Assembly (NCBI GenBank): GCA_028277515.1
Contig: JANQGC010000254.1
Location: forward strand, 1-30,335
DNA from: Anaerolineae bacterium
GTDB taxonomy: Bacteria; Chloroflexota; Anaerolineae; Promineifilales; Promineifilaceae
DNA: 30,335 nucleotides
Reading direction: 5' to 3'
The notes under the pieces are model-generated. The model was not told the origin of the DNA. It was given only the letters and a program-made list of their open reading frames with translations, and did not search any database. The position numbers and the translations under genes are program-made. Of this stretch, positions 704-20,020 are shown piece by piece (position 1 is the stretch's first letter; each line of letters starts with the position of its first letter).

Positions 704-736
704 AGGTGACAGTCACTTCTAAAGTGACTGTCACCT
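704..736. repeat. 15-bp inverted repeat (GGTGACAGTCACTT family), copy 1
   Basis: AGGTGACAGTCACTT, a CTA spacer, then its exact complement: a perfect 15-bp hairpin, and each arm contains its own small palindrome GTGACnGTCAC. It contains the stop codon of the copper ATPase and ends about 30 bases upstream of the UxxU thioredoxin start. The same element occurs at 6850-6880 upstream of the other selenoprotein gene. It may be a REP-like repeat, an operator or an mRNA processing/stability hairpin; sequence alone does not decide. Confidence 0.85.
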
Positions 737-2824
737 TGCTGAGAGATCCGTTCCCTTGAGAGTCATAGCGTTGATGGCCACAATGATCGTACTCAGAGAC
801 ATGAGAAATGCGCCCACGGCGGGGGGCATGATGAATCCAATGGGAGCCAGGATGCCCGCGGCGAGGGGGATCATGACAATGTTATAGCCGGCGCCCCACC
901 AGATATTCTGCTTCTGTTTGCGATAGCTGGCCTGGCTCAATTTCAGGATCTTGACCACATCGAGCGGGTTGCTCTTGACCAGGATCAATCCGGCCGACTG
1001 GACGGCGACGTCGGTTCCGCTGCCGATGGCGATGCCGATGTCGGCGCGGGTCAGGGCAGGGGCATCATTGACGCCGTCACCGACCATAGCCACGCGCTTG
1101 CCCTGTTTCTGCAGCTCTTGCACTTTTTGATCTTTATCTTCAGGCAGCACTTCGGCGAAGAACTGGTCAATGTCTAATTTCTCGGCCACGGCCTGGGCCA
1201 CCTGGCGGCTGTCGCCGGTGAGCATCGCCACTTCCACGTTCATCTCATGCAGCGCACGCACGGCCGTTTGGCTCTCCGGCCGAATGACATCAGCCAGGGC
1301 AAAAGCGGCAATCACACGATCGCTACGTACAAGATAGGTGACGCTCTGCCCTTTCTCGCCCGCTTCATGGGCGAATTGGGCCAGGGAAGGTTCCCTTTCT
1401 ATTTCCAGGTACTCTAAGAGCTGCGGGCCACCGACATACACGGCTTGACTGTCGTATCGGGCCTGCACGCCACGCCCTTTGAGAATTTCAAAATCGCTGA
1501 TCGGCGGCCGATCCAGGCTTTGCTCCTCGGCCGCCTGGCGAAGCGCACGGCCGATGGGATGTTCGGAATCCCCTTCGATAGCCGCGGTCAAGGCCAGGGC
1601 CTGTTCGGGATCAATGTCGCCGGCCACGGCCGAATCGACGACGCCGATTTCAGCCTTAGTCAACGTGCCGGTCTTGTCGAAAGTGATGATGTTGAGGTCC
1701 TTGGCCGTTTCCATGGCCTGCCTGTCGCGGATGAGGATGCCGTTGTTAGCGCCCAATGAAGTGGTATTGGCCACGACCAGGGGCACGGCCAGGCCGAGGG
1801 CGTGGGGGCAAGCAATGACCAGTACGGTGACCACGATGGAGATGACCTGCGCGGTCACGCCGCCATAATAGAATGACCAGATGAGACCGGCCACGGTTGC
1901 GGCCAGCAGGGCAGCGTAAAAGAGCCAGGATGCGGCACGGTCGGCCAGAAGCTGGGTTTGCGACTTGCTTTTCTGCGCTTCTTCGACCAGGCGCATGATG
2001 CCGGAGAGAGCGGTCTCTTCCCCCACAGCGGTCAGTTCGACGCGCAGGCTGCCGGCTCCGGCGTTGATCGAGCCGCCGATGACCGGATCATCGACTTGTT
2101 TCTTGACCGGGCGTGATTCGCCGGTGAGCAGCGATTCATCCATGTCGGTCTGCCCTTCAAGCACACGGCCGTCAGCAGGGGCGTTGGCGCCGGGGCGAAT
2201 GAGCACCTTGTCGCCGGTTTGTAATTCGTCGAGGGGTTTTTCGGCCGTGCTGCCGTCGGATAGGATGACTTCGGCCGTGTCGGGCATGAGCCGGGCCAGT
2301 GCATCCAGCGCCCCTGAAGCCTGGCGCACGCTGCGCATCTCCATCCAATGGCCGAGGAGCATGATGTCAATCAGGGTGACCAACTCCCAGAAGAAGTCGT
2401 CGCCGATTTCCCAGACCAGGGTGGCCATGCTGTATATATAGGCAACGCTAATCGCCAGAGAGATGAGGGTCATCATGCCGGGGCTGCGGCCGCGTAGCTC
2501 CCAGCGGGCCATACTGAGAAAGGGCAGGCCACCAATGATAAAAATAACGGAGGCCAAAATGGGCAGCACCCACCGGCTGCCGGGAAATGCGGGCGCGCTG
2601 AAGTTGAACCAGCCCTGGATAGCCGGGCTGTATATGAGGACGGGCAGGCTGAGAATAAGGCAGATCCAAAAGCGGTCCCGGAACATGATTTCATGGCCGG
2701 TGTGGTCTTGATGGCCGCCCTGATGGTCGCTGTGGTCTTGGCCGCTTTGATGATCCTGATGTTCTTGCCGGTCATGATCTTCATGGTCCAGATCATGTCC
2801 ATGATGGTCATTGTGAGTTGTCAT
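731..2824 (-). CDS. copB: P1B-type copper/silver-translocating ATPase, CopB subtype
   Basis: A 697-residue heavy-metal P-type ATPase that exports copper or silver across the cytoplasmic membrane. Residues 1-45 are a His/Asp-rich metal-binding tail. Transmembrane helices follow from about residue 52, then the actuator motif TGES (about 234-237), CPH in the sixth metal-site helix (339-341, the CopB signature rather than CPC), phosphorylation motif DKTGTLT (Asp383), the SEHP loop, and GDGVNDAP before the last helices. The start at 2824 is preferred because TGGAGAAACC lies just upstream; the open frame extends to 3010, but that extra part runs into repeat sequence and lacks a ribosome site. The UxxU thioredoxin lies directly downstream. 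The stop codon falls inside the palindrome at 704-736. Confidence 0.95.
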   Translation of the reverse strand: MTTHNDHHGHDLDHEDHDRQEHQDHQSGQDHSDHQGGHQDHTGHEIMFRDRFWICLILSLPVLIYSPAIQGWFNFSAPAFPGSRWVLPILASVIFIIGGLPFLSMARWELRGRSPGMMTLISLAISVAYIYSMATLVWEIGDDFFWELVTLIDIMLLGHWMEMRSVRQASGALDALARLMPDTAEVILSDGSTAEKPLDELQTGDKVLIRPGANAPADGRVLEGQTDMDESLLTGESRPVKKQVDDPVIGGSINAGAGSLRVELTAVGEETALSGIMRLVEEAQKSKSQTQLLADRAASWLFYAALLAATVAGLIWSFYYGGVTAQVISIVVTVLVIACPHALGLAVPLVVANTTSLGANNGILIRDRQAMETAKDLNIITFDKTGTLTKAEIGVVDSAVAGDIDPEQALALTAAIEGDSEHPIGRALRQAAEEQSLDRPPISDFEILKGRGVQARYDSQAVYVGGPQLLEYLEIEREPSLAQFAHEAGEKGQSVTYLVRSDRVIAAFALADVIRPESQTAVRALHEMNVEVAMLTGDSRQVAQAVAEKLDIDQFFAEVLPEDKDQKVQELQKQGKRVAMVGDGVNDAPALTRADIGIAIGSGTDVAVQSAGLILVKSNPLDVVKILKLSQASYRKQKQNIWWGAGYNIVMIPLAAGILAPIGFIMPPAVGAFLMSLSTIIVAINAMTLKGTDLSAR

Positions 2825-2961
2825 TGGTTTCTCCATTTTATGGATAGTTATTGTACGTCGCCCTGTCATGTGATTTGCCACTGCGAAAAGATAGTGTACT
2901 CGATTGGTGAAAGTGGAAAAAGTGCCATTTGGCGGGTGAAGCATGGTCGTTTGGCGGGTTC

Positions 2962-3017
2962 TGTAGAGCAACCTTTCCAGGTTGTTCAGCAGCCGCAAGC
3001 TAGAAAGCATGCGCTAC
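2962..3017. repeat. Interspersed repeat, TGTAGA(G/A)CAACCTTTCCAGG family, copy 1
   Basis: The segment runs from TGTAGAGCAACCTTTCCAGG through AGCCGCAAGCTAGAAAGC to GCGCTAC. A near-identical copy lies at 10418-10470. Internal complementarity (AACCT..AGGTT, and CTTTC..GAAAG) lets it fold as stacked hairpins. It lies upstream of the copper ATPase and forms the left part of a repeat cluster reaching 3096. Confidence 0.8.
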
Positions 3018-3096: not shown

Positions 3097-3525
3097 TTAC
3101 GGATGGGCCAGGGATATGGTAAGCAGGGTTCCTGCACCCGGCCGGGATTCAATTGTTAACTGCCCTCCTATTAACTCCGCTCTTTCTTGTATGCCTAGCA
3201 AGCCAAAATGTCCATTGCCGGCCATCTCCGCCGGGCTTCCGGGTACGGTAAAGCCACGGCCGTCATCACGGATAGAAAGCGTGATCCGGCCATTCTCAAA
3301 GGCCAGGTGCACGGCGGCGCAGGTGGCCTGGGCGTGGCGCATGACGTTGCTCAAACCTTCCTGCCCGATGCGATAAAAGGCGAGTTCGATCTCCTGCGGC
3401 AAGCGTCTTTCCCTGCCGGAAACGTGAAAGTCAATGGGGATTTGTAGCGCCTGTGCCATGTCGCGGGTGAGCATATTCAAAGCAGTAACCAGACCCAAAT
3501 CTTCCAAATAAATAGGGCGCAGCAC
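3097..3525 (-). CDS. NarL-type sensor kinase ATPase domain only (truncated or stand-alone)
   Basis: 142 residues from a GTG start, beginning LRPIYLEDLGLVTAL, which in NarX/LiaS-type kinases comes immediately after the phospho-accepting HisKA_3 helices. The whole HATPase domain is present: N-box GQEGLSNVMRHAQA (about 54-67), DDGRGF (about 87-92), and GHFGLLGIQERAELIGG (about 105-121). No histidine-box, sensor or membrane segment precedes it. The start codon lies two bases after the stop codon of the response regulator, so the pair is translationally coupled with the regulator first. It may be a remnant of a full kinase, or an anti-sigma-like or partner ATPase module acting with another protein. 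Extending the frame upstream into the regulator gene gives no kinase sequence. Confidence 0.8.
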   Translation of the reverse strand: MLRPIYLEDLGLVTALNMLTRDMAQALQIPIDFHVSGRERRLPQEIELAFYRIGQEGLSNVMRHAQATCAAVHLAFENGRITLSIRDDGRGFTVPGSPAEMAGNGHFGLLGIQERAELIGGQLTIESRPGAGTLLTISLAHP

Positions 3526-3527
3526 AG

Positions 3528-4193
3528 CTACTCCAATTCGGCTTCGATCAATCCCAGGGAGACGGCGCGCATCACGGCTTCCGTGCGGCTGCCGGCCTGC
3601 AGCTTGCTGTAAGTCTTGGCCAGGTGACCTTGCACGGTTCGGTCGCTGATGCCCAACTGCATACCGATGGCTTTGTTGGTGAATCCTTTGCCGGCCAGGG
3701 TCAGCACTTCTAATTCGCGGCCGGTGAGCGATTCATAGGCCATCGTGGTCCTGTTTGACGGCCGCTGCCCGGAGATATGGACCATTAACTTCTGGGCAAT
3801 GGCCGGATCAAGGGCGGATTTGCCTTCGTATACATCACGCACAGCCTGCACAATCTCTACAGGCGAGGCTGTTTTTAGCACGTAACCATTAGCCCCGGCC
3901 TGCAAAACAGCCAATACATAGGGATCGTAGTCATAAGCGGTTAAGACCAGGACCCCAATCTCCGGGTAATTGGCGCGAATCCAGCGCGTGACCTCAATTC
4001 CGCTGGCCTCCGGCATCTGGATGTCGAGCACGGCGACATCCGGCTTGTGCTGTGCGATCAGGGATTGTGCTACCTGGCCATCATCCGCTTCGGCGACGAC
4101 GGTGATGTCGGGAGCATGATCGAGAAATAGGCGGATTCCGGCGCGAACGACGGCATGATCATCGGCCAAAATAGTGTGAATGGGTTCACTCAT
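3528..4193 (-). CDS. NarL/FixJ-family response regulator
   Basis: 221 residues. Receiver domain at 1-120 with acidic pocket Asp11/Asp12, phospho-acceptor Asp57 (VLDIQMPEASG) and Lys107. A LuxR/GerE helix-turn-helix near the C-terminus (LTGRELEVLTLAGKGFTNKAIG, then GISDRTVQGHLAKTYSKL) binds DNA once the receiver is phosphorylated. The start MSEPIHT at 4193 is chosen because the receiver begins there; a TTG at 4235 would add 14 residues unlike the family. There is no good ribosome site, but the ATG overlaps the end of a small membrane ORF (stop at 4186), so translational coupling is likely. The kinase fragment follows at once. Its targets are not evident. Confidence 0.92.
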   Translation of the reverse strand: MSEPIHTILADDHAVVRAGIRLFLDHAPDITVVAEADDGQVAQSLIAQHKPDVAVLDIQMPEASGIEVTRWIRANYPEIGVLVLTAYDYDPYVLAVLQAGANGYVLKTASPVEIVQAVRDVYEGKSALDPAIAQKLMVHISGQRPSNRTTMAYESLTGRELEVLTLAGKGFTNKAIGMQLGISDRTVQGHLAKTYSKLQAGSRTEAVMRAVSLGLIEAELE

Positions 4194-4338
4194 AAGTAAA
4201 ACTGCGCTGGAGGTTGGGAAAGATAAACCATACAATGCCCAGCGAAAAGATAATCCCGCTTATGAGGCGCATCCAGGAGTTAAACGATCCCAGCCCATCT
4301 CCTTTATAAAAGTTAGCCGGAAAAACATGGTTGGTCAA
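4186..4338 (-). CDS. Possible 50-residue single-span membrane protein
   Basis: This frame starts with TTG at 4338, behind an AGGGGA ribosome site at 7-base spacing, and ends with a TGA overlapping the first codons of the response regulator. Residues about 22-41 (WMRLISGIIFSLGIVWFIFP) form a hydrophobic helix, followed by a short polar tail. I do not recognise the family. The overlap and the good ribosome site suggest a real leader gene that couples translation of the regulator. It could also be the remnant of the membrane portion missing from the kinase fragment. The coding call is tentative because the start codon is rare and the peptide short. Confidence 0.4.
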   Translation of the reverse strand: MTNHVFPANFYKGDGLGSFNSWMRLISGIIFSLGIVWFIFPNLQRSFTYE

Positions 4339-4893: not shown

Positions 4894-6705
4894 ATGAAGA
4901 AGAAGTGGTTTGTTTATATATTAGCCACCATTTTACTCGGTTTGTCATTGAGCGCCTGTTCGACCCTGGAAGGTATTTTGCCGGGGGGTGACGCTGAACC
5001 GGCGGCCGACGACAGCGGGGCAGTGGTCCCCACGGCGACGAATGGTAACGGAGCGACAAACGCAGGGGGTGAACCTGTTTTGGGGGCAGCCACCGTGCAG
5101 GATATTGAGATCCTGATCCTGGAAAGTTTCCCGGTGCAGGTTAATGTGCAAATTAACGGCGTCTTTCCCGATGACTGCACGACGATCAATGATATAGTCA
5201 GCCAGCATGAGGGGCAGAATTTCAACGTTGCAGTGACCACGCTGCAAGAGCCTGGACCCGACTGTCAAAGCGGTGAGGTGCCTTTTGACACAGTTCATCC
5301 TCTGGATGTGGCCGGTCTTGCGGCCGGGACCTACACGGTAGATGTTAACGGCGTGCGCGGCGCTTTCACGCTTGATATTGATAATGTGCTCCAGGAAGAA
5401 CCGATGGCCGAAGAACCAACGGCCGAAATGACGGAAGAGCCGTCGACTGAGCCGGAAGCGGGGGGGTCTTTTTCGCTGACCGGCCGGGTGTGGCATGATG
5501 AGTGCGTTAACGCCGGGGACGGCACGGACAATGTGCCCGAAGGCTGTGCAGCGGCGGATGACGGCAGCCTGGTGGCCGACGGCCTGCTGCAAGGCGAACT
5601 GGGCATCGAGGGCGTCCTGGTAGATTTAGGCGCCGGGGCCTGTCCGGTGACGGAAGTGATCATCACCTCGGCTACGGACGTCGATGGCGTTTTTAGTTTT
5701 GGCAACCTGGAAGCGGCCGAATATTGCCTCTCGATTGATACGACGGGGCTGCAAAATGAGGCGATTCTCGCGCCTGGCCGGTGGAGCGCGCCGGCGGGCA
5801 GCGACGGCCAAGTATCCGTCCAGGTCGGTGATGACGCCCTGGCTGATGAGGTTTTATTTGGCTGGGACTTTGAGCTGCTGCCGATCAACCTGGCCGACTG
5901 TGAAAACAGTTTTGAGTTCGTTGATGATCTCACCATTCCTGATGATACCGTTCTTCCGCCAGGAGAATCATTCACGAAAGAATGGCAGGTGCGCAACAAC
6001 GGCACCTGTCCCTGGACGGAGGAATATGCGGTCGTCTTTATCGGCGGCGATCAGATGGAAGCACAGGAAGCGATTTCTCTGACGCAGTCCGTAGCCGTGG
6101 CCCAAACCCTGGATATCGCCGTGGATATGGTGGCCCCGGAGGAGCCGGGCACGTATCGTGGCAACTGGCAATTGGCCGATGATCAAGGGGAACTGTTCGG
6201 CATCGACGGCAATATTGATGATGCATTCTGGCTGCAGATTGTGGTCGAGGAAGGGGCAGAGCCGCCATCGACACCGGAGCCTAATTCGGGGGCGATCGGC
6301 GGCGTGGTCTGGGATGATTTCTGCATCAACAGCAATCCCGGCCGCGGCTGTGTGGAGTCGGTGACGGCCGGGGTCTTCGTGGCCGATGGCGCATTTGACG
6401 GGCTGGAGGTAGCGTTGCCGGAGATTACGATCGGCCTGGCCGAGGATGCCTGTCCGGGGGACGGTAGTTTGCCGGATGATGTGCTGGCGACGGCTGTGAC
6501 GGATGAGGATGGCACTTATCTCTTTGAAAACCTGTCTGAAGGAACGTACTGTATCTATATGGATGCCTTGAGTGAGGAAAATGTAGATTTGCTCATTCCC
6601 GGCAACTGGACCTGGCCGGCGCAAGGGGTCGGACGGTACAGCTTCGTCCTGGACCCGGGCGAACAGGCGTTGGATCTGGATTTTGGTTGGGATTATGTAG
6701 ACTAA
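4894..6705 (+). CDS. Large lipoprotein with NBR1/FW Ig-like domain and two SdrB-like domains
   Basis: 603 residues; ATG with a strong AAAGGAGAGG ribosome site. Residues 1-22 are a lipoprotein signal (LSLSAC). A beta-rich N-terminal domain (about 60-165) precedes a Glu/Thr-rich linker. SdrD-B/prealbumin-like domains lie at about 190-325 (LTGRVWHDECVNAG ... YCLSID) and 466-603 (IGGVVWDDFCINSN ... YCIYMD), clearly duplicates of each other. Between them, at about 335-455, is an NBR1-type FW Ig domain with its signature WQVRNNGTCPW and PGTYRGNWQL. Such modular lipoproteins are common on Chloroflexota cell surfaces; the function is probably adhesion or structure, and no catalytic residues are visible. 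Paired cysteines in the modules suggest disulfides, which might need the exported thioredoxin nearby; that link is inference. Confidence 0.9.
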   Translation: MKKKWFVYILATILLGLSLSACSTLEGILPGGDAEPAADDSGAVVPTATNGNGATNAGGEPVLGAATVQDIEILILESFPVQVNVQINGVFPDDCTTINDIVSQHEGQNFNVAVTTLQEPGPDCQSGEVPFDTVHPLDVAGLAAGTYTVDVNGVRGAFTLDIDNVLQEEPMAEEPTAEMTEEPSTEPEAGGSFSLTGRVWHDECVNAGDGTDNVPEGCAAADDGSLVADGLLQGELGIEGVLVDLGAGACPVTEVIITSATDVDGVFSFGNLEAAEYCLSIDTTGLQNEAILAPGRWSAPAGSDGQVSVQVGDDALADEVLFGWDFELLPINLADCENSFEFVDDLTIPDDTVLPPGESFTKEWQVRNNGTCPWTEEYAVVFIGGDQMEAQEAISLTQSVAVAQTLDIAVDMVAPEEPGTYRGNWQLADDQGELFGIDGNIDDAFWLQIVVEEGAEPPSTPEPNSGAIGGVVWDDFCINSNPGRGCVESVTAGVFVADGAFDGLEVALPEITIGLAEDACPGDGSLPDDVLATAVTDEDGTYLFENLSEGTYCIYMDALSEENVDLLIPGNWTWPAQGVGRYSFVLDPGEQALDLDFGWDYVD

Positions 6706-6900: not shown

Positions 6901-7377
6901 ATGAAACGTTTGATTCTTTTATTGCCTGCCTTATTACTGCTGCTGGCGGCCTGTACGGCCGAAACAGGGCAGCAACCGGCGGCGACAGAAAGTGATGGAC
7001 CTGAAATCGTCGTATACCAGACGCCCACTTGAGGCTGCTGCGGCGATTGGATTGAATATATGCGTGGGCACGGCTACAGCGTTGATGTGCAAGACACGAA
7101 CAACCTGGCCAAGATCAAAGAAGACTTCAACGTTCCCGCACAGCTTCAATCCTGCCATACAGCCATCGTGGATGGCTATATTATTGAAGGACACGTTCCT
7201 GTAGAAGATGTGGAACGGTTATTGGAAGAACGGCCGGATATCGCCGGCTTAGGTGTGCCGGGCATGCCCCTCGGTTCGCCGGGGATGGAGGTTGATGGCG
7301 CGGCCGACCAGCCGTATGATGTGCTGGCATTTGACCGTGAAGGAAACACGGAAGTGTATGCCAGTTACCGGCCGTAG
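6901..7377 (+). CDS. DUF411 / CopG-like copper-binding lipoprotein with Sec in the CGCC motif (selenoprotein)
   Basis: 158 residues when the TGA at 7030-7032 is read as selenocysteine. The ATG at 6901 is preferred over 6883 because AAGGA lies 8 bases upstream. Signal peptide and lipobox LAAC (Cys18), then EIVVYQTPT-U-GCCGDWIEYM: the family motif PxCGCCxxW with its first Cys replaced by Sec44. The rest is a complete DUF411 domain: YSVDVQDTNNLAKIKEDFNVP, SCHTAIVDGYIIEGHVP, and GLGVPGMPLGSPGMEVDG. DUF411 includes CopG, a periplasmic copper-resistance protein that binds copper through these Cys, His and Met residues and is thought to be redox-active. A lipid-anchored Sec version beside a CopB ATPase fits extracytoplasmic copper detoxification. 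No Cys-encoding paralogue is visible in the window. Confidence 0.88.
7033..7074 (+). promoter_or_regulatory. Candidate SECIS hairpin of the DUF411 selenoprotein
   Basis: Directly after the UGA, GCUG (7034-7037) can pair with CGGC (7071-7074), UGC (7039-7041) with GCA (7068-7070, register approximate), and AUU (7046-7048) with AAU (7055-7057), around an apical loop GGAUUG. The loop starts 16 bases after the UGA and begins with G, as in the known bacterial SECIS rule. The upper stem is only three A-U pairs, so the fold is less convincing than that of the thioredoxin gene and needs a folding calculation. Confidence 0.4.
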
Positions 7378-7448: not shown

Positions 7449-7512
7449 TGTAATAATAATTAATTGTTGAATACTTCGGCAAGGTCAGTACAAGTTTGTT
7501 GAATGGTTAACC
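7449..7512. repeat. AT-rich TTAATTGTTGAA / CTTCGGCAAGGTCAG repeat, copy 1
   Basis: Runs of TAATTAATTGTTGAA with an embedded CTTCGGCAAGGTCAGTACAA and GTTTGTTGAATGGTTAA. Related strings occur at 13552-13632, 17809-17880 and 27955-27994. It overlaps the last codons of the histidine kinase gene, so that protein's final residues are repeat-encoded. Confidence 0.65.
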
Positions 7513-8870
7513 TGAGATAAGGCAATGGTGAAGGTGCTGCCCTGGCCAGTGGTGGAGGCGGCGCTGAGGGTGCCGCCGTGGGCTTCAACGATGGATTTGG
7601 CGATGGCCAGGCCCAGGCCGGAAGCGCCGTTTTGCTGGCGGGAGCGGTCACTGCGGTAGAAGCGGTTGAAGATGTGCGGCAGATCCTCCGAGGCGATGCC
7701 CTGTCCACTATCCTGCACGCTGAGGAAGGTGTAGCCATCCTGAAATTTGGCTATTAATTGAACGTCTCCCCCCTCCGGCGTGTGACGAATGGCGTTGGCG
7801 ACCAGGTTGCCCAACACTTGAGCCATGCGGTCCGGGTCGATTGCAATGTTCGCTAAATCAGAAGCGGCTTGCACCCCGATTTGGATCTCTTTTTTCTGCG
7901 CTGCGACACGGTGCGCAGCGGCCATCTTGTTGAGCAGTTCCTCCGGATCGACTTCCTGCAAGGTCAGGTGTAGTTCGCCGGCATCGGCCAGGGAAAGCAG
8001 GCGCAGATCCTCGATCAGCCGGTTGAGATGCTGCGCTTCGTTGTACATCACACCGTACATTTCCGGTGAGCCTTGCAGCTTGCCTTCGCTGAGCGCCTCC
8101 GTGTAGCCGAGGATGACGCTTAAGGGGGTGCGCAGATCGTGAGCCACATCGGCCGTCATCTGGCGGCGAGCCTGGTTGGCGCGGGCCAGATCGCTGCTCA
8201 TGGTATTGAAGGATTGGGCCAGTTCACCCAACTCGTCATTGGTATGCACTTCGACCTGGGTGCCCAGTTCGCCGCCAGCCAGCCGTTTGGTGGCCCCGGT
8301 CAGCTCACGCACGGGGCGGGAAATGGTGCGGGCCAGGAAAACACCCACGATCACGGCGATGACTATCGCTCCTAATCCACCCAAGAGCAGGGCGCGGCGC
8401 ATGCGCTCCAAAAAGTCCAGTTCCGGACCGGGCAGGCTGCCGGCCTGGATAGGCGCCTCCTCGAAGAGCACATAGCCCACCGTTTGATTTTCAACCGTCA
8501 GGGGGACGGCCTTTTCCATATCGGCATCGGACAGTTCAACACCAAGTAATTCTTCGCTGGGGGCAATGACCAGGTTTCTGTCCTTATCGATCAGGGCGAA
8601 CAAGGCCGGCTGGGGGGGTCCCCCTTGACGGCCGCCGCCCCGGCGGCGGATGAAGGTTCCTGGGGGCGGCCATACCCCGGTCAGACTTTGAAAACTGCCT
8701 TCCAGTTCATAATAGTCGAGCAGGCGATCGACGATGTCCTGCTGGTAGCTGCGCAGGACAAAGCGGTCGAATTCACGCTCCGTCTGGCGGGCCAGGAAAA
8801 CGGTGACCAGGCCGGCGCCGATCAGAGCGACGATGAGAAAGGCCAGGGTAAGTTTAAGGGTCAGGCGCAT
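7485..8870 (-). CDS. Membrane sensor histidine kinase (BaeS/PhoR-like)
   Basis: 461 residues from the ATG at 8870; the open frame continues upstream but only as a shadow of the regulator gene. Transmembrane helix at 7-27, an extracytoplasmic sensor region of about 130 residues with a Gly/Arg/Pro-rich loop, transmembrane helix at about 160-180, HAMP domain (about 181-233), HisKA box [10 protein letters not shown] with phospho-accepting His244, and HATPase with N-box [16 protein letters not shown] and [16 protein letters not shown]. It lies four bases after the OmpR-type regulator and lacks its own ribosome site, so it is coupled to it. The last dozen residues ([10 protein letters not shown]) are encoded by the AT-rich repeat. 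The signal sensed is unknown; the adjacent secreted His-rich protein may be part of the same response. Confidence 0.95.
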
Positions 8871-8874
8871 GAGT

Positions 8875-9561
8875 TTAGAGATCGATGTTGAAACGATAGC
8901 CGACGCCGTAAACGGTTTCCACATAGTGGGGGTTGCGCGTGTTGGGTTCGATCTTGGAACGCAAATTGCGGATATGTACGTCGATGGTGCGCTCATAGCC
9001 TTCGTAGGCGTTACCCTGCAAGAGATCGAGCAAATCCAGACGGCTGAAGGCGCGGCCGGGTGCGGCCATGAGCGCGGCCAACAGGTCAAATTCAGAGGGG
9101 GTCAGATCGATGTATTCTCCATTTACCTTCACCAGGCGGCCGTTGCGGTCCAGGGTGATGTCGCCGGCGCGCAGCAGCTCGGCCTGCGGCGGCGTCTTAC
9201 CGGCGCGGCGCAGGACGGCGCGAACGCGCGCGGTCAGCTCGCGCATGCCGAAGGGTTTGGTGACGTAATCGTCGGCGCCCAGTTCCAAACCCAGAACTTT
9301 GTCGCTTTCTTCTACTTTGGCAGTGAGGATGATGATCGGGGTGTCCGCTTCCCGGCCATAGACGCGCATGAATTCATAACCGCCCATTTCGGGCATCATC
9401 AGGTCAAGCAAAATCAGATCCGGTTTTTCATCACGGGCCAGGAAGAGCGCCTGGCGGCCGTCGGCGGCCGTAATCACGCGGAATCCTTCCTGGGACAGGT
9501 AGCTTTTGACGAGGGTGCGTAAACTTTCAGTATCATCAACAACGAGAATTGTTTTGGCCAT
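8875..9561 (-). CDS. OmpR/PhoB-family response regulator
   Basis: 228 residues; ATG at 9561 with AGGAGA five bases upstream. Receiver domain with acidic pocket Asp9/Asp10, phospho-acceptor Asp53 ([13 protein letters not shown]), and Lys102 in DDYVTKPFG. The C-terminal winged helix (about 130-228) carries [17 protein letters not shown] and [20 protein letters not shown], the trans-activation loop and recognition helix of this family. It is co-transcribed with the kinase that follows. A direct repeat of about 11-12 bp abutting a -10-like box lies at 9628-9659 upstream, and the same arrangement precedes the secreted-protein gene, so the regulator probably controls itself and that gene. Confidence 0.96.
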
Positions 9562-11435: not shown

Positions 11436-11534
11436 TGCCAGACACTTAATGAATCTTGTAACCGCGAAATGGATTTCGCGCGCCCCCGGCGAGGATATGA
11501 ATCCTCGGTTACTTTCATCCAAAAGTGTCTGGCA
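11436..11534. repeat. Nested element: TGCCAGACACTT inverted repeats around a GTAACC...GGTTAC copy
   Basis: Outer arms TGCCAGACACTT (11436-11447) and AAGTGTCTGGCA (11523-11534) are perfect 12-base inverted repeats. Between them at 11458-11512 lies copy 3 of the GTAACC two-hairpin repeat (GTAACCGCGAAATGG ... TCCTCGGTTAC). One repeat seems to have inserted inside another. It ends just upstream of the moxR start, so it forms part of that operon's leader. Confidence 0.75.
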
Positions 11535-11548
11535 ACCAAAAGGAAATC

Positions 11549-12550
11549 ATGATGGATTCAAGCAATTTTAGTGTACGCGAACTGAATATGCAGGTAAGGC
11601 AGGAAGCGGTCTTCCTGCAAGATTTATTGTCCGAAATCAATAAAGTGATGGTCGGGCAAGAAGCGCTGGTGGAGCGCGTGCTGATCGGTTTGCTGGCCGA
11701 CGGCCATATTTTATTGGAAGGTGTACCCGGCCTGGCCAAAACATTGTTGATCAAAACCGTATCAGAAGCGATCCAGGCTGAATTTTCACGTATTCAGTTC
11801 ACGCCCGATCTGCTGCCGGCCGACCTGATTGGTACGCAGATTTACAACCCACGTACCGGAGAATTTACGGTGCATAAAGGTCCACTTTTCGCCAATTTAA
11901 TTTTGGCCGACGAGATTAACCGCGCCCCGGCCAAGGTGCAGAGCGCCTTGCTGGAAGCGATGCAGGAACGGCAGGTGACTATCGGTGAGGATACGTTCCC
12001 CATGGAAGATTTGTTCCTGGTTATGGCCACCCAGAACCCAATCGAGCAGGAAGGGACTTACCCGCTGCCCGAGGCGCAGGTCGACCGTTTCATGCTCAAG
12101 GTGAAGGTGGATTATCCCTCACGCGCCGAAGAGCGGCTGATCATCGACCGTATGACCGGCGCCACGCTACCCACGGTCAACGCGGTGATCGCGCCCGAAG
12201 ATATTTTGCGCGCGCGGCAGATGGTGCGTCAGATTTATGTGGACGACAAGATAAAGGAGTACGTATTGGACCTGGTCCTGACCACCCGTAACCCGGGAAC
12301 GAACGGCTTGAGTGACTTGAGTAATCTGATTGACTTTGGCGCTTCGCCGCGGGCTAGCATCAACTTGATCGCCTCCGCCCGCGCCCATGCCTTCTTGAAA
12401 GGGCGCGGCTTTGTTACACCGGAAGATATTAAGCAGATCGCGCCTGATGTTTTACGCCACCGTATTATCACCAGCTATGAAGCGGAAGCGGAAAATATCA
12501 CCAGCGACCATATTGTACAGCGGATTTTGAATCATACGCAGGTCCCATAA
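11549..12550 (+). CDS. moxR: MoxR-family AAA+ ATPase
   Basis: 333 residues from ATG at 11549, with AAAGG five bases upstream; an ATG at 11552 is equally possible, and the GTG at 11525 lies inside the repeat. Walker A is GVPGLAKT (about 58-65), Walker B LILADEINR (about 117-125), the lid and sensor-1 region is LVMATQNPIEQEGTYPLPEAQVDRFM, and the C-terminal lid domain includes VTPEDIKQIAPDVLRHRI. MoxR ATPases act as chaperones that activate or assemble partner complexes, typically VWA-domain proteins. Here it is the first gene of a moxR-DUF58-bat operon, which is the usual context. The operon is probably involved in envelope stress tolerance. Confidence 0.97.
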   Translation: MMDSSNFSVRELNMQVRQEAVFLQDLLSEINKVMVGQEALVERVLIGLLADGHILLEGVPGLAKTLLIKTVSEAIQAEFSRIQFTPDLLPADLIGTQIYNPRTGEFTVHKGPLFANLILADEINRAPAKVQSALLEAMQERQVTIGEDTFPMEDLFLVMATQNPIEQEGTYPLPEAQVDRFMLKVKVDYPSRAEERLIIDRMTGATLPTVNAVIAPEDILRARQMVRQIYVDDKIKEYVLDLVLTTRNPGTNGLSDLSNLIDFGASPRASINLIASARAHAFLKGRGFVTPEDIKQIAPDVLRHRIITSYEAEAENITSDHIVQRILNHTQVP

Positions 12551-12554
12551 AACT

Positions 12555-12608
12555 CTAACCGCGAAATCCTTTTCGCGCCGTGAGGCAAAAATTGGAATTT
12601 TCGGTTAC
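12555..12608. repeat. GTAACC...GGTTAC two-hairpin repeat, copy 4
   Basis: CTAACCGCGAAATCCTTTTCGCG, here split as CTAACCGCGAAAT / CCTTTTCGCG, then CAAAAATTGGAATTTTCGG and TTAC. It occupies the whole gap between moxR and the DUF58 gene, so it is transcribed as an intra-operon hairpin. Confidence 0.85.
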
Positions 12609-12621
12609 GAAGAGAAAAATT

Positions 12622-13509
12622 ATGCTTACTTCTGACTTAATGAAAAAAATCCGGCGGATTGAGATTCACACGCGGCGTTTGGTCAATGACAGTTTCGCCG
12701 GCGAGTACCATTCCATCTTCAAGGGCCGGGGCATGGAGTTTGATGAGGTGCGGCCGTACCAGATCGGCGATGAGATTCGCACGATTGATTGGAATGTGAC
12801 GGCGCGCACGGGTGAGCCTTATGTGAAACGGTATGTGGAAGAGCGGGAATTGACGGTCATGCTGGTCGTTGATGCTTCCGCCTCGGAGAATTTTGGTTCA
12901 GTGGACCGCTTTAAGCGCGAGCTGGCGGCCGAATTAACGGCCGTGCTCTCCTTCGCAGCCACGACCAACAACGACAAGGTCGGGCTGTTGATCTTCACCG
13001 ACCAGATCGAGCTGTTCATCCCGCCACGTAAAGGGCGCAAACATGTCCTGCGCCTGATTCGTGAGCTGCTGGCCTTTGAGCCGCAGAGCACGGGCACCAA
13101 TATCAAAATGGCCCTGGATAAAGTGAACCAGATCTTGAAGCGGCGCAGCATCATCTTCCTGGTGTCGGACTTCATGGCCGACCCGGAGCAGTATCGCCGG
13201 GCGCTTTCGGTGACCAACCGCCGCCATGATGTGATCGCCGTGGACTTAAATGATCCCCTGGACACGGAAATTGGAGATGTGGGCTTGATCGCCTTGGAAG
13301 ATCCGGAAACGGGAGCCATTGTTTGGGCAGACACCAGCAGCCGGCGCTGGCAAAACGCCTATCGCCGGCAGATGGACACTTTGGAAACAGACAAAACTCG
13401 CGTCTTTCGCCAGGCTAGCGTGGATCGTATTGATATCCACACGGATGAGGAATACACCACGCCGTTGACACGATTTTTTAAAGAAAGGGCGAAAAGAATC
13501 AGATCCTAA
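12622..13509 (+). CDS. DUF58 (VWA-like) protein
   Basis: 295 residues from ATG at 12622; the longer frame from GTG 12580 would run through the repeat. The DUF58 signature lies at about 25-75: YHSIFKGRGMEFDEVRPYQI, GDEIRTIDWNVTAR, PYVKRYVEERE. A VWA-like fold follows with a MIDAS-type DASAS at about 84-88. No transmembrane segment is visible, as is usual for the cytoplasmic DUF58 proteins paired with MoxR. It is probably a MoxR partner, with metal-dependent protein binding in the assembly of the Bat membrane complex. A near-family alternative is unlikely given the signature and context. Confidence 0.95.
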   Translation: MLTSDLMKKIRRIEIHTRRLVNDSFAGEYHSIFKGRGMEFDEVRPYQIGDEIRTIDWNVTARTGEPYVKRYVEERELTVMLVVDASASENFGSVDRFKRELAAELTAVLSFAATTNNDKVGLLIFTDQIELFIPPRKGRKHVLRLIRELLAFEPQSTGTNIKMALDKVNQILKRRSIIFLVSDFMADPEQYRRALSVTNRRHDVIAVDLNDPLDTEIGDVGLIALEDPETGAIVWADTSSRRWQNAYRRQMDTLETDKTRVFRQASVDRIDIHTDEEYTTPLTRFFKERAKRIRS

Positions 13510-13551
13510 AAATGGAGACCTGGTTATATAGCCGGGTTCAAGGAAGGAAGA

Positions 13552-13632
13552 AAATAATTAATTGATGAATAATTATTTGTTAATTGAGGAGAACAGCCCA
13601 TTAACAATTCACAGTTCAACAATTCACAATTT
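13552..13632. repeat. AT-rich TTAATTG / CAATTCACAGTTCAACAA repeat, copy 2
   Basis: Alternating AATTAATTGATGAATAATTA and CATTAACAATTCACAGTTCA words, related to 7449-7512, 17809-17880 and 27955-27994. It fills most of the gap between the DUF58 gene and the next operon gene. Confidence 0.55.
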
Positions 13633-13655
13633 TCTTAAGGTCTATAGGTCTTAAT

Positions 13656-14669
13656 ATGACTAAAAAACTATCAATACCGTTCATCCTCATCGTGGTCCTT
13701 TTAATTGCCGGTTCGGCCGCGGCGCAGGGTGAAGTCTCAGCAACAATGGTCGTTCCTGAAGGGCCTTTTACTGTGGGCGATCCATTGGAACTGGCGCTTA
13801 CGGTGACTCATCCGCCGGGCTACATCGTGATCAGCCCGGAACTGCCAGAGACATGGGGCAATTTTATTATCGTTGAGCAGTCGCCGCCGCTGACCATTGA
13901 AAACGAGGACGGTAGCGAGACGACAGCGATTACGATTGACGCCCGTTTGTTTGCGCCCGGTGAATACAGCACGCCACCGTTGACGGTGAACATCACCGAT
14001 GGGGCGGGGCAGTTGCGCGAACTGCCGGTTGCACCGGCAACGATCAACATCGCATCTGTGCTGGTTGAAGGGGACACGGACCTGCGCGATATCAAGCCGC
14101 AGGCGGAACTGCCCTTCTTAAACCTGCTGCCCTGGGCCGTTGGCGGGCTGCTCCTGGCCGTTGCTGCCGGGGGTGGCTACCTGTTCTATCGACGTCGTCA
14201 GGCCCAACTGGCCCTGGCCGCGGTGGATAACCGGCTACCGCATGAGATTGCCCTGGATGATCTGAACCGCATCGGGCAGCTTGGGCTACCGGAAGAACAG
14301 CGCTTCAAGGAACATTACACGCTGGTTTCGGACACGGTACGCATCTATATTGAGCGCGTCTATCATGTGCCCATGTTGGAGCGGACGACGGGCGAGATCC
14401 GCCTGGCCTTAGGACAGACAACGATGTCGCGAGCCAATAAGGCGCAATTGTTGACCTTTTTGGATGAAAGTGACCTGGTCAAGTTTTCCGAGCATACGCC
14501 GTTGGAAAGTGAAGCATATGAATTGATCAGCAAAGGACGCAGCATTGTGGAGAACAATAAACCGCTGGTGATTACGGAAGAGGATATAAACAACCCCGAC
14601 AAGCCGGAGCCGGACATCCATCAGTTTTCGGCGAATGGCCACAAGGAACCGATTGAGGTGAGAGCATGA
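13656..14669 (+). CDS. BatD-like / DUF4381-like single-span membrane protein of the Bat operon
   Basis: 337 residues. Signal peptide ending AAAQG, then an extracytoplasmic Ig-like beta domain (about 25-145) with PFTVGDPLELALTVTHPPGY, resembling the BatD N-terminal modules. One transmembrane helix at about 158-180 (LPWAVGGLLLAVAAGGGYLF) is followed by a basic stop-transfer RRRQ and a cytoplasmic helical region of about 150 residues (FKEHYTLVSDTVRIYIERVY). Its position between DUF58 and batA matches the DUF4381-type gene found in many moxR operons. The stop codon overlaps the ATG of batA (ATGA), indicating coupling. Role: membrane scaffold or assembly partner of the VWA proteins. Confidence 0.85.
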   Translation: MTKKLSIPFILIVVLLIAGSAAAQGEVSATMVVPEGPFTVGDPLELALTVTHPPGYIVISPELPETWGNFIIVEQSPPLTIENEDGSETTAITIDARLFAPGEYSTPPLTVNITDGAGQLRELPVAPATINIASVLVEGDTDLRDIKPQAELPFLNLLPWAVGGLLLAVAAGGGYLFYRRRQAQLALAAVDNRLPHEIALDDLNRIGQLGLPEEQRFKEHYTLVSDTVRIYIERVYHVPMLERTTGEIRLALGQTTMSRANKAQLLTFLDESDLVKFSEHTPLESEAYELISKGRSIVENNKPLVITEEDINNPDKPEPDIHQFSANGHKEPIEVRA

Positions 14670-15679
14670 CAAGTTTTCAATTTGCCGCACCCTGGATGCT
14701 GGTCCTGGCGCTGCTCGTACCCGCCGGGTTGGCCGCTTATCATCTGTTAAATAAGCGACGCAACCGGCCGGCGACGATGCACCATGCCGCCGCAGGATTG
14801 GTACGCGATATTCCGCGCTCCTGGCGCATCACCTGGCGACCGCTGACGGCCGTCCTGCGCCTGACCGCCATCACCTTGATAATCGTTGCCCTGGCCCGGC
14901 CACAATTTGTGCAGGGGCGGGAAACGATCACCGGCGAAGGGGTGGACATTGCTCTGGCCCTGGATATTTCAGGCAGCATGGCTTCTTTAGATTTTGAACC
15001 GCGCAACCGCTTGGAAGCGGCTAAAGCTGTAATCAATGATTTCGTGATGGAACGGCCGTATGACAAGATCGGCATGGTCATCTTCGCCAGCGAGGCGTTC
15101 AGCCAAAGCCCGCTGACCCTGGACCACAATATGGTCACCCGGTCGCTGGAGCAGGTGGAACTGGCGTCCGACCTGGGCATTGAAGATGGCACGGCCATCG
15201 GCCTGGGCATTGCTAACGCGGCCAATATGTTGACCAACAGCGACGCCGAGAGCAAGGTCGTGATCTTGCTCACGGATGGCGTCAATAATTCCGGACAGAT
15301 CGACCCGCTGACGGCGGCCGAAGCGGCCAAGGCGCTGGATATTAAGATTTATACCATCGGCGCCGGGCGACCGGGCGAGGTTCCCGTACCTGTGCCGTCG
15401 ATGCTCGGCGGCACGACGATTTCTTATATGGAAAGCGTACTGGACGAGCAAACCTTGCAGCAGGTGGCCGAAGTCACGGGCGGACAATATTTCCGCGCGG
15501 AAGACACGGCCGGTTTGCGCGCCATTTACGACGAGATCAACCGCCTGGAGAAATCTCAGGTCGAGGTCCAGGTGTTTAACCAGTATCGTGAACTGATGGC
15601 CTGGCTGCTGATTCCGGCCTTGCTGTTACTGCTGGTGGAAATTGTTTTACGGAATACGCTGTTTAGGAAGGTACCGTAA
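14666..15679 (+). CDS. batA: BatA-like VWA-domain membrane protein
   Basis: 337 residues. N-terminal BatA helix (FAAPWMLVLALLVPAGLAAY), a second helix (about 60-78, VLRLTAITLIIVALARPQF), then a VWA domain with complete MIDAS: DISGSM (about 99-104), a Thr in DGTAIGLG, and Asp in LLTDGVNNSG. A C-terminal helix (AWLLIPALLLLLVEIVL) re-anchors it. The VWA domain therefore faces one side of the membrane between anchor helices, as in the Bacteroides aerotolerance Bat proteins. MIDAS-bound divalent metal mediates protein contacts. It is followed by its paralogue batB after a 16-bp inverted repeat. Confidence 0.95.
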   Translation: MTSFQFAAPWMLVLALLVPAGLAAYHLLNKRRNRPATMHHAAAGLVRDIPRSWRITWRPLTAVLRLTAITLIIVALARPQFVQGRETITGEGVDIALALDISGSMASLDFEPRNRLEAAKAVINDFVMERPYDKIGMVIFASEAFSQSPLTLDHNMVTRSLEQVELASDLGIEDGTAIGLGIANAANMLTNSDAESKVVILLTDGVNNSGQIDPLTAAEAAKALDIKIYTIGAGRPGEVPVPVPSMLGGTTISYMESVLDEQTLQQVAEVTGGQYFRAEDTAGLRAIYDEINRLEKSQVEVQVFNQYRELMAWLLIPALLLLLVEIVLRNTLFRKVP

Positions 15680-15684
15680 ATAAC

Positions 15685-15747
15685 AAATTTGACAACTTTT
15701 CTCGACTGCAAATTGGGAAAGATGATGTCTAAAAAGTTGTCAAATTT
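15685..15747. repeat. 16-bp inverted repeat between batA and batB
   Basis: AAATTTGACAACTTTT (15685-15700) and AAAAGTTGTCAAATTT (15732-15747) are perfect inverted arms around a 31-base spacer, wholly inside the 83-base gene junction. It could modulate operon mRNA stability, or be the remnant of a small mobile element. Confidence 0.85.
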
Positions 15748-15762
15748 CGCATCGAGGAAGAA

Positions 15763-16809
15763 ATGCAATTCACACAACCACAATTCTTATTGATTGGATT
15801 AATACTGATACCGGCCGTTGGCCTTTTCTTATGGTGGGCCAAGCGACGGCAAAGGATCGCCCTGGATCGCCTGGGCAATAAATCGCTGATCGACCGCCTG
15901 AGCGCCAACATCAACTGGACGGGACGTCGCTGGCGGGTTGGCCTGTGGCTCCTGGCCCTGACGTTGGTCATGGTCGCCCTGTCTCGGCCGCAATGGGGTA
16001 GCGAAGTGCGCGAGATTGAGCAAGAAGGATTGCAGGTCATGGTCGCGCTGGATGTCTCGCAGAGCATGCTGGCCGAAGATATTGCGCCAACGCGCCTGGA
16101 TCGGGCCAAGCTGGAGATCGCCGACCTGACCGAACGGCTGGACGGTGACGAAATTGGGCTGGTGCTCTTTTCCGGGGCCAGCTTCATCCAGGTTCCACTG
16201 ACAACGGATTATTTGACGGCGCTTAACTATCTGGACAGCGCCCAACCGGGCGTGATCAGCCGGCCGGGTACGGTCATCGGCGACGCGATTCGCACGGCGA
16301 TGGCCGGTTTTGATGAGGAACTTAACAACCAGAAGGTGCTGGTCATCATGACCGACGGCGAGGACCATGAAACGGACCCGCTGGCGGTGGCCCAGGAGGC
16401 GGCCGATGCCGGTGTGCTTATCTACACGATTGGTTTCGGCACACCTGAAGGGGAACCCGTGCCGGAGACGAACCAGTTTGGTGAGGTCGTCGGCTATAAA
16501 CAGGACCAAAATGGCGAAGTGGTGCTCTCCCGCCTGGATGAGGGCACGCTGCAAGGGATCGCGCAGACGGCGGGGGGTAAATATTATCGGGCTACCCCGG
16601 ACGGCCGTGAGCTGGACGCGTTACTAGGCGAAATTGACACCTTGCAGCAGGCGCAGCTTTCCAGCCGCTTTGAGACCACTTATATCGAACGCTACCAGAT
16701 TTTCCTGGCCCTGGCCCTGGCCGCACTGATTATCTCCGAGTTGATTCCGGAACGTATCCGGGAACGGCGCCGGACGGTGGCCGGCACTGTTCGGGTGGTG
16801 GAAAGTTAG
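15763..16809 (+). CDS. batB: BatB-like VWA-domain membrane protein
   Basis: 348 residues; GAGGAAGAA precedes the ATG. Same plan as batA: N-terminal helix (FLLIGLILIPAVGLFLWW), second helix (WLLALTLVMVALSRPQWG), VWA domain with complete MIDAS DVSQSM, Thr in GTVIGDAIR and Asp in MTDGEDHETD, and a C-terminal helix (FLALALAALIISELIP) with a basic tail. The insert YLDSAQPGVISRPGTVIGDA is characteristic of BatB rather than BatA. BatA and BatB are thought to form a heteromeric VWA complex assembled by MoxR. Confidence 0.95.
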   Translation: MQFTQPQFLLIGLILIPAVGLFLWWAKRRQRIALDRLGNKSLIDRLSANINWTGRRWRVGLWLLALTLVMVALSRPQWGSEVREIEQEGLQVMVALDVSQSMLAEDIAPTRLDRAKLEIADLTERLDGDEIGLVLFSGASFIQVPLTTDYLTALNYLDSAQPGVISRPGTVIGDAIRTAMAGFDEELNNQKVLVIMTDGEDHETDPLAVAQEAADAGVLIYTIGFGTPEGEPVPETNQFGEVVGYKQDQNGEVVLSRLDEGTLQGIAQTAGGKYYRATPDGRELDALLGEIDTLQQAQLSSRFETTYIERYQIFLALALAALIISELIPERIRERRRTVAGTVRVVES

Positions 16810-16890
16810 AGAGAAGGGTTGCCGATTTTTAGATTAGTCCATCAAGTAATCAGTATTCAGTAAAATTGGTTTGCAGAGACGAGATTATCA

Positions 16891-17808
16891 ATGAGTAAAA
16901 TGAAGAAAACAACACCCATCATTCTCCTTGTGTTCCTGGCTTTATTGGCTACGGCGTGCAGCCCCAACAAGGCGGAGCAGTTGAACAAGGAAGGCAATGA
17001 AGCCTTCGCCCAAGAGGCATTCCAGGAGGCCTTGGTTGATTATCAAACAGCGCAGATTGAGGAGCCGGAACTGGCTGAACCTTATTATAATGCGGCCAAT
17101 TCGCTCTATCGCCAGGGACAATATGAGGCGGCCCTGGAGCAGTTAAATATCGCTTTGAGCTTCGCTGAGGAAGATTCACTGGCCACGGACGGCTTCTTTA
17201 ACCTGGGTAATGCTTCTTATAACATGCAGGACCTGGGATCGGCCGTTGCCGCTTACACTGAATCCCTCTTGCTCAATCCGGATGACCAGGATGCCAAGTA
17301 CAACCTGGAATTAGCATTGCAGCAGCAACAGCAAGAGCAAGAACAGCAGCAGGAGCAAGAGCAGGAACAACAAGAAAACCAGGAAGAGCAGCAAGATCAA
17401 TCTGGTGAAGGTGAACAGGAGCAGGAAGAACAATCCGGCGAAGGTGAAAACCAGGAAGAACAAGATCAATCTGGTGAAGGTGAACAGGAACAGGAAGAAC
17501 AGTCCCAAGAGGGTGAAGGCGAGGGCGAGCAAGAAGAACAAGACCAGGGACAGGAAGAATCTGACCAATCCCAGGATGGGCAGGACGGCGAGCAGCAAGA
17601 GCAAGAAGGGCAGCCGCAATCCGGCCAGCCAGGTGAAGAGCAGGAACAGGAAAGGCAGCCCAGCCAGGTTCCCGCCCCTGGTCAGACCATGACCGAGGAA
17701 CAGGCGCAGCAGCTCCTTTCGGCTATCGCCGGGGACAGCCAGACCTTGCAAGAAAGGTTAGGCCAGATTTTCGCTGTGCCCTGGGGTCCGCCGGCGCAGG
17801 ATTGGTAG
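16891..17808 (+). CDS. batC: BatC-like TPR lipoprotein with long Gln/Glu-rich tail
   Basis: 305 residues. Lipoprotein signal with LLATAC (Cys23), then tetratricopeptide repeats (about 28-140): AEQLNKEGNEAFAQEAFQEA, AEPYYNAANSLYRQGQYEAA, GFFNLGNASYNMQDLGSAVA. From about residue 147 to 265 the sequence is almost entirely Gln/Glu with Ser/Gly/Asp, including a 23-residue unit repeated twice. A short C-terminal conserved-looking piece (MTEEQAQQLLSAIAGDSQTL) resembles the end of BatC/BatB2-type proteins. TPR domains here probably scaffold the Bat complex on the outer membrane face. Start could also be ATG 16900; no strong ribosome site. Confidence 0.9.
   Translation: MSKMKKTTPIILLVFLALLATACSPNKAEQLNKEGNEAFAQEAFQEALVDYQTAQIEEPELAEPYYNAANSLYRQGQYEAALEQLNIALSFAEEDSLATDGFFNLGNASYNMQDLGSAVAAYTESLLLNPDDQDAKYNLELALQQQQQEQEQQQEQEQEQQENQEEQQDQSGEGEQEQEEQSGEGENQEEQDQSGEGEQEQEEQSQEGEGEGEQEEQDQGQEESDQSQDGQDGEQQEQEGQPQSGQPGEEQEQERQPSQVPAPGQTMTEEQAQQLLSAIAGDSQTLQERLGQIFAVPWGPPAQDW
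17398..17510 (+). repeat. Tandem coding repeat, 69-bp period, in the BatC-like gene
   Basis: The unit beginning CAATCTGGTGAAGGTGAACA starts at 17398 and again at 17467, encoding SGEGEQEQEEQ twice in a 23-residue period. Recent slippage or unequal exchange is likely; length should vary among strains. Confidence 0.8.
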
Positions 17809-17990
17809 TTAATAATTAATCCTTCGGGAAGCTCAGGACAAGTTTGTTGAACTGTTGAATTGGTGAATGGTTAATTATTTTCCGACTCCTAAGAAACAAA
17901 CCGTCACCGATTGTCATTCCGATGCGAAGCGAGGAATCTTTCGCTGACAGGGAACCAGATCCCTCATTTCATTAGGGATGACATTTACAG
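17809..17990. repeat. Two adjoining intergenic repeats (AT-rich copy 3 and GTCATTCCGATGCGAAGCGA element)
   Basis: 17809-17880 carries TAATTAATCCTTCGGGAAGC, CAAGTTTGTTGAACTG and GAATGGTTAATTA, matching the AT-rich family. From about 17912 to 17985, TGTCATTCCGATGCGAAGCG, GGAATCTTTCGCTGACAGGG and finally AGGGATGACA form a loose inverted repeat of the TGTCATTCC...GGAATGACA kind common in Chloroflexota genomes. No gene lies in the 260 bases between batC and batD. Confidence 0.65.
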
Positions 17991-18069
17991 ATTCTTTGCT
18001 CATAGAACAGAGCCTGCGATGTGGCAGTTCTCAGAATAATATGCAGAGAGAAGACGGAGTAGTTATCAG

Positions 18070-19932: not shown

Positions 19933-19953
19933 GCTGAGGGTCTGCGAGGGGAT

Positions 19954-19985
19954 GAGTGGCGAGTATATTATCATACTCGCCACTC
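19954..19985. repeat. 13-bp hairpin between batD and batE
   Basis: GAGTGGCGAGTAT - ATTATC - ATACTCGCCACTC, a perfect 13-bp stem, with a third CGCCACTC half copy at about 20001-20008. There is no T-run after it, so it is not a typical terminator. Confidence 0.85.
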
Positions 19986-20020
19986 GCAAACACGCTACTT
20001 CGCCACTCTAAAGGTTTATC

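Follow-up and report, generated by a model that had tools for sequence, protein, structure and literature searches.

Is a TGA codon inside a gene for a copper protein the end of that gene, or is it read as selenocysteine (Sec)? The question is raised by a 30,335-nucleotide stretch of DNA from an Anaerolineae bacterium (the "window", meaning the whole stretch analysed), in which the forward frame 6901-7377 encodes a protein of the DUF411 family, that of the periplasmic copper-resistance protein CopG. The frame begins with an ATG behind an AGGA-like sequence, ends with TAG, and contains a single stop, TGA 7030-7032, at codon 44. Judged from sequence comparison, it very probably encodes a selenoprotein form of CopG, here termed "Sec-CopG", with the following features.

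6901..7377, forward: candidate Sec-CopG gene (DUF411), UGA read as Sec, 158 residues (reading frame, Pfam, homologue alignment)
6901..6954, forward: signal peptide with the lipobox LAAC at its end (Cys18), from the sequence
7030..7032, forward: codon 44, an in-frame UGA in the place of the first CxCC Cys (sequence, homologue alignment)
7033..7075, forward: weak candidate Sec insertion sequence (SECIS) hairpin, -11.3 kcal/mol, apical loop from 17 nt after the UGA
7036..7041, forward: Cys46 and Cys47, second and third Cys of the UxCC motif, invariant in alignment A3
7060..7377, forward: 105-residue remnant called by gene callers from a start after the UGA (database protein P0003)
7144..7287, forward: Pfam DUF411 domain with its C-terminal GMPxGSPGM segment (Pfam, alignment A3)
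7153..7158, forward: conserved distal Cys85-His86, invariant in alignments A1 and A3
7264-7266 and 7285-7287, forward: Met122 and Met129 of the GMPxGSPGM segment, both invariant in alignment A3

The product of readthrough opens with a signal sequence and lipobox (MKRLILLLPALLLLLAAC), and a lipobox-like motif is present in 24 of the 26 Chloroflexota-type genes of this kind. Further on, it displays the motifs VYQTPT-U-GCCGDW, LQSCHT, and GMPLGSPGM. Pfam DUF411 matches residues 82-129 with 94.9 bits (cut-off 27). Because this model lies entirely downstream of the TGA, the position of the CxCC motif comes from alignments to homologues and to CopG of structure 6wis. CopG of structures 6wis and 6wje (DUF411, PF04214) is the Pseudomonas aeruginosa protein, and the window protein shares its fold. 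In the alignment, UGA 7030-7032 falls on a Cys of the homologues. An earlier note on this DNA, made from its letters alone, had placed the TGA at the first Cys of the metal motif, with a signal peptide and lipobox before it and a DUF411 domain after it; all of this stands, the CxCC motif itself lying outside the Pfam model.

The TGA recurs at the same codon in at least 94 other DUF411 genes, which excludes chance. Genome contigs scanned with the pattern P-T-U-G-C-C-x-x-W gave at least 117 stretches and viral contigs gave 9, and the gene and genome counts that follow are among the matches listed. The 128 matches, window included, comprise 95 DUF411 genes with the TGA (at least 94 loci and the window) and 33 that were not counted, namely 23 unrelated stretches, the 9 viral ones, and a frameshifted second copy in L100. 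The viral matches are not DUF411 and were rejected as Sec-CopG. Four short or cut copies (L016, L036, L053, L085) were taken in by eye and by a homology rule, and six genes run off their locus (L036, L053, L054, L070, L096, L098). Since L029 and L085 share a genome, as do L055 and L087, the genomes number 92. Two copies per genome occur in L100, L029/L085, and L055/L087, all with Betaproteobacteria or Burkholderiales titles, one copy being broken for L100 and L085. By phylum label, of which there are ten, the genes belong to Chloroflexota (24), Acidobacteriota (22), Pseudomonadota (16), Gemmatimonadota (11), Myxococcota (8), Rokuibacteriota (5), Campylobacterota (2, the isolates Helicobacter brantae and H. 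cholecystus), and Tectimicrobiota, Methylomirabilota, and Actinomycetota (1 each), with 3 genes unlabelled. These labels are record titles and may be wrong for some bins, with L071 (titled Halieaceae) and L092 (titled Acidimicrobiia) as apparent cases of misbinning. The carriers also include the isolate Parendozoicomonas callyspongiae (L072), which comes from a sponge and has a hairpin of its own.

Two draws of genomes were searched with the DUF411 profile reading through stops. In the class of genome G007 (249 genomes), 31 carry DUF411, and the codon is readable in 29, as TGA in 15 and Cys in 14; it was not read in G222 and G267. A degenerate DUF411 fragment at a contig end in G168 contains another TGA. 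In the order of genome G305 (300 genomes; the record is titled Betaproteobacteria), 103 genomes carry DUF411, and seven of the genes, in six genomes, have an internal stop, which is each time one TGA at the codon of interest. Neither draw has a TAA or TAG at this codon; the only TAA within a DUF411 match, that of the L070 gene in G013, lies upstream of it. Nine of the 15 and three of the 6 TGA genomes, respectively, were already in the pattern scan.

Such recurrence bears on the reading of the window gene as a pseudogene or an assembly error. It has one in-frame stop, and 5 of 96 copies elsewhere (the second L100 copy included) carry another defect, downstream of the TGA in L016, L085, and the L100 copy, and upstream in L070 and L103, where an in-frame stop precedes the TGA by 3 and 9 codons. 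Random frame breaks among homologues, which would have spoken for decay, are thus not the pattern seen. The identical stop occupies the identical codon at no fewer than 95 loci, no TAA or TAG replaces it in either draw, and the codons after it are under purifying selection. The ratio of nonsynonymous to synonymous rates (dN/dS) downstream of the TGA is 0.06-0.28 in 18 pairs picked for closeness, some of them near saturation. The pooled proportions of nonsynonymous and synonymous differences are 0.106 and 0.459 after the TGA vs 0.199 and 0.532 over the 20 preceding codons. Recurrence and selection led to the rejection of the pseudogene reading, which is extremely improbable.

Alternatively, the UGA may be a true or regulatory stop followed by a translation restart, yielding a 105-residue fragment. 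Databases do hold such fragments: the window's own entry in the protein collection, P0003, starts downstream of the TGA, and P0021, P0041 (a "DUF411 domain-containing protein" of Candidatus Promineifilaceae bacterium), and P0047 resemble it, judged from the protein only. The window gene also offers an ATG at codon +10. A Met at this position is found in just 18 of 96 TGA genes, however, and 34 of the 96 have no ATG beyond the UGA until codon 78 or 80, while residues right after the UGA that the scan pattern left free show conservation (Gly +14 in 91/96). With restart positions so variable and those residues conserved, the restart was rejected as very unlikely. Annotation tends to shorten Sec-CopG genes because a Sec codon resembles a stop.

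The pattern of Sec and Cys on a tree of 181 rows, with one in three database Cys proteins kept, fits the usual Sec/Cys interchange. At least 18 state changes are counted, of which 2 are forced by well supported branches, vs a shuffled mean of 57; the tree rests on few columns, leaves many forks without resolution, and counts as Sec, by assumption, 12 database proteins with Trp at the site. Among Cys forms in the class of G007, L156-L163 make up a subgroup in which Tyr replaces the Trp that follows CxCC and the C-terminal tail is PWMEW-like.

The genomes that carry TGA-DUF411 genes also tend to carry the Sec machinery. In the 90 of 92 TGA genomes that were searched, the elongation factor SelB is over its cut-off in 78 (36/40 and 42/50) vs 2 of 14 control genomes, while tRNA-Sec is over its cut-off in 33 of 40, with 32 scoring at least 53 bits and G016 marginal at 47.3. 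The coexistence with sel genes that the earlier note suggested checking is borne out among these carriers. Its proposal that lack of tRNA-Sec would refute the idea is answered in part: the tRNA is present in those 33 carriers, within the limit that the same search passes its cut-off in 5 of the 14 controls, making it a weaker line of evidence than SelB. One of the controls, Thermus composti, has a tRNA-Sec match (E 1e-9) and no SelB over the cut-off, a chance match or a relic. One or the other component is found in 38 of the first 40 TGA genomes. Of the remaining two, G017 may hold a piece of SelB where a contig ends, and G034 has a tRNA match of 44.8 bits at ~2 kb from a weak SelB match. The two Helicobacter genomes each have a sub-threshold tRNA match within ~1.5 kb of SelB. 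A contrast comes from the order of G305, where SelB is found in 83 of 300 genomes: it is present in 6/6 TGA genomes vs 27/97 genomes with only Cys-type DUF411 (one-sided Fisher p = 7.7e-4, kinship ignored). In the class of G007, SelB occurs in 13 of the 15 TGA genomes and SelB or tRNA-Sec in 14, against base rates of 203/249 for SelB and 188/249 for tRNA-Sec. Finally, a SelD gene with a single TGA, at its U-A-S-K site, turned up in 15 of 16 Chloroflexota-type TGA genomes (in G015 split over two contigs). These TGA-encoded SelD genes (L202-L215, L217) are followed by hairpins that differ between genomes, and by eye no hairpin form is common to SelD and DUF411 of the same genomes.

The RNA that follows the UGA was compared in 96 TGA genes and 39 Cys genes (14 from the class of G007, 25 from the order of G305). 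Outside the Chloroflexota-type set, a SECIS-like hairpin follows the UGA in about half of the genes: a 7-bp stem 14-30 nt after the UGA has all seven pairs in 36 of 67, a count inflated by relatedness among genes, vs none of the 39 Cys genes (inner six pairs in 2) and 1 of 29 Chloroflexota-type genes. Loops in the 37 genes that form the inner six pairs read GGU (15), GUU (6), GAU (5), GGC (5), or otherwise, and the loop residue (+8) is Gly in 26 of the 67 genes and in none of the Cys genes. Standard pairs fill 0.85 of the hairpin cells vs 0.812 with redealt partners (standard deviation 0.006, maximum 0.83 of 500), and 0.58 at most when the pairing is slid. In five genes GTA...TAC replaces GTG...CAC, combining a synonymous Val change with His to Tyr; one Cys gene does likewise. 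Against synonymous shuffles, the 67 genes fold with z -0.96, -0.84, and -0.97 at 0, 3, and 9 nt (standard error, SE, 0.15-0.19), a signal restricted to the immediate vicinity of the UGA (at 15 nt, z is +0.13); the corresponding values for Cys genes from the order of G305 are -0.26, -0.39, -0.17, and -0.48 (SE ~0.2). Other lineages carry other G-loop hairpins, for example Helicobacter (GCUUUGGUCAAAGC).

The window's own hairpin, 7033-7075, is not conserved, and 27.5% of 40 synonymous shuffles are at least as good; the 61-nt stretch starting 5 nt before the UGA gives no hint of structure (z +0.69). Across 27 Chloroflexota-type genes, RNAalifold finds weak structure only (-1.88 kcal/mol). A dip at 45 nt after the UGA in this set (z -1.01, SE 0.22) was not taken as a signal since later windows swing from +0.75 to -0.73. 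The sole oddity near the UGA of these genes is a codon bias, with GGC at codon +4 in 25 of 26. The synonymous bias at codons -3 to -1 and +4 (CCY ACY UGA ... GGC) comes without a stable conserved hairpin and possibly marks an unusual decoding signal. Rfam and tRNA searches of the 30-kb window gave no match.

A suppressor or near-cognate tRNA might instead read the UGA, inserting Cys, Trp, or another residue. This would sit well with the lack of a clear SECIS in the window's lineage and with the Trp found at the site in 12 of the 112 database proteins parsed among the 120 matches listed, as if the caller had used TGA=W. It is nevertheless improbable. TGA-DUF411 follows SelB in the order of G305, and the hairpin found after the UGA in 36/67 genes outside Chloroflexota is absent from Cys genes. 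TGA also serves as a terminator: it ends 39 of 95 TGA-DUF411 genes themselves and 2 of 15 window genes checked, among which an internal TGA occurs in the Sec-CopG gene only, vs 74 TGG. SelB tracking and this use of TGA led to the rejection of recoding to Trp.

Several observations weigh against the selenoprotein reading or against parts of its support. SelB over the cut-off is missing in 12 of the 90 genomes, although G324 among them holds two SelB pieces and G296, like G017, a possible piece. G196, a TGA genome of the class of G007, lacks both SelB and tRNA-Sec, and in that class co-occurrence with SelB is weak evidence, SelB being so common there. The Cys controls of the hairpin comparison come from two groups only, and the pair between the first base of codon +7 and the third base of codon +9 was left uncounted because Cys genes covary there too. 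General criteria for bacterial SECIS discriminate poorly between TGA and Cys genes: 66% of the 96 and 54% of the 39 contain a qualifying hairpin at or below -7.5 kcal/mol. Genes whose best hairpin outperforms 95% of its 40 shuffles number 17 of 67 among TGA genes outside Chloroflexota and 4 of 25 among the Cys genes from the order of G305. In the 29 Chloroflexota-type genes, window included, the region after the UGA does not fold beyond its shuffles (z -0.05 to -0.33, SE ~0.2), nor does the best hairpin (z -0.23, SE 0.16). Lastly, no recurrent copper partner was found beside TGA-DUF411 genes in a Pfam survey that covered 65 of 131 neighbour proteins and 41 of the 44 chosen loci. No family occurs in more than two of the 65, which include one multicopper oxidase, one E1-E2 ATPase match, and two di-haem peroxidases. 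On balance, the UGA of these genes is very probably decoded as Sec in general, and presumably in the window's own organism as well.

According to the mechanism proposed for Sec-CopG, SelB and tRNA-Sec would insert Sec at UGA 7030-7032, so that a lipid-anchored protein of thioredoxin fold bears the motif U-G-C-C. By analogy with CopG, Sec44, Cys46, Cys47, Met122, and Met129 may hold a multinuclear copper cluster, or may act as a redox centre, switching copper between Cu(I) and Cu(II) and handing it on. Met122 and Met129 are presumably the equivalents of the two cluster Met of CopG, and copper binding with a redox or copper-relay role would follow from the same analogy. That Sec bonds to copper directly, as part of a Cu-S/Se cluster whose copper affinity and redox potential it would tune across many phyla, is slightly favoured. 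In a competing proposal, the protein is a selenoprotein in which Sec44 serves a reaction with thiols and disulfides, peroxide, or another soft metal (e.g., mercury, silver, arsenic), and is not a structural ligand of a copper cluster. The thioredoxin-like fold, for which Grx and NrdH are the next structural matches, lends this some support, as do the lack of a recurrent copper neighbour and the view expressed in a review that most uncharacterised selenoproteins are probably redox proteins (PMC13188914). It is tentatively placed second, as rather unlikely: the second and third Cys of the CopG site, the distal Cys, and both Met are retained, with M..G.PGM kept in 89 of 90 TGA genes having at least 85 residues after the TGA, and a copper-type ATPase is encoded near the window gene. 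The neighbours concerned are as follows.

731..3010, reverse: copper-type P1B ATPase (TIGR01511, 577.6 bits, cut-off 397)
7485..9089, reverse: HAMP sensor histidine kinase, convergent with the Sec-CopG gene
8875..9561, reverse: OmpR-type response regulator

Directly preceding the ATPase gene, the reverse strand at 3097-4235 encodes a NarL-family response regulator and then a 142-residue open reading frame that matches only the end (ATPase part) of a sensor kinase. Immediately 5' of the Sec-CopG gene, 4894-6705 (forward) encodes a protein with N_BRCA1_IG and SdrD_B-like domains. Farther away, a Bat-type (aerotolerance-like) cluster with genes for MoxR ATPase, DUF58, VWA/BatA, BatD, and TPR proteins occupies 11525-20815 of the forward strand, which also encodes, at 22770-23141, a DUF5615 PIN-like protein, perhaps one half of a toxin-antitoxin pair.

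If Sec does ligate copper, the resulting copper-selenolate cluster would define a class of Cu-Se metalloproteins overlooked since their genes are annotated as truncated, and Sec-CopG illustrates how such genes can enter databases as 105-residue fragments. The Cys and Sec forms make a natural pair at a copper site, with solved structures for the Cys form, making the effect of selenium on copper chemistry directly testable.

Among known systems, the closest relative is CopG, which binds a tetranuclear copper cluster according to a review (PMC7558416). In the window gene, UGA encodes the first Cys of CxCC, and the lipobox is a feature of the window protein; since two Cys and a UGA-encoded position replace the three-Cys CxCC, it is a variant and not a standard CopG. 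No NCBIfam model matches it. As to the earlier note's remark that no Sec case was described for this family, the main text of PMC13188914 (May 2026; 119 families and subfamilies) has no DUF411, PF04214, CopG, or UxCC, and a literature search of papers, without supplements or preprints, found none that pairs DUF411 with a selenoprotein. Five papers that mention CopG alongside selenoproteins and selenocysteine deal, judged by title, with human or animal cells. Sec-CopG is thus rated as a new selenoprotein family and a new CopG variant, which would add to the bacterial selenoproteome a broadly distributed family missing from the main text of that catalogue. With thioredoxin-fold selenoproteins (Trx, Grx, SelW-like, DsbG-like, UXX-star) it shares the replacement of a motif Cys by Sec in a thioredoxin-type fold and the Sec/Cys interchange, although the table of 119 families in PMC13188914 includes neither DUF411 nor a UxCC motif. 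With the metal-site selenoproteins in the main text of the same source, it shares a Sec at a likely soft-metal ligand position. These are the SO_0444 Cu/Zn efflux transporter (UxC), the CopZ family (GxUC/CU), an E1-E2 ATPase (UxxC), MerT-like, MbdU, and SaoB/SaoC. They belong to families other than DUF411 and are given as predictions there, in a text stating that the roles of selenoproteins in metal detoxification need study.
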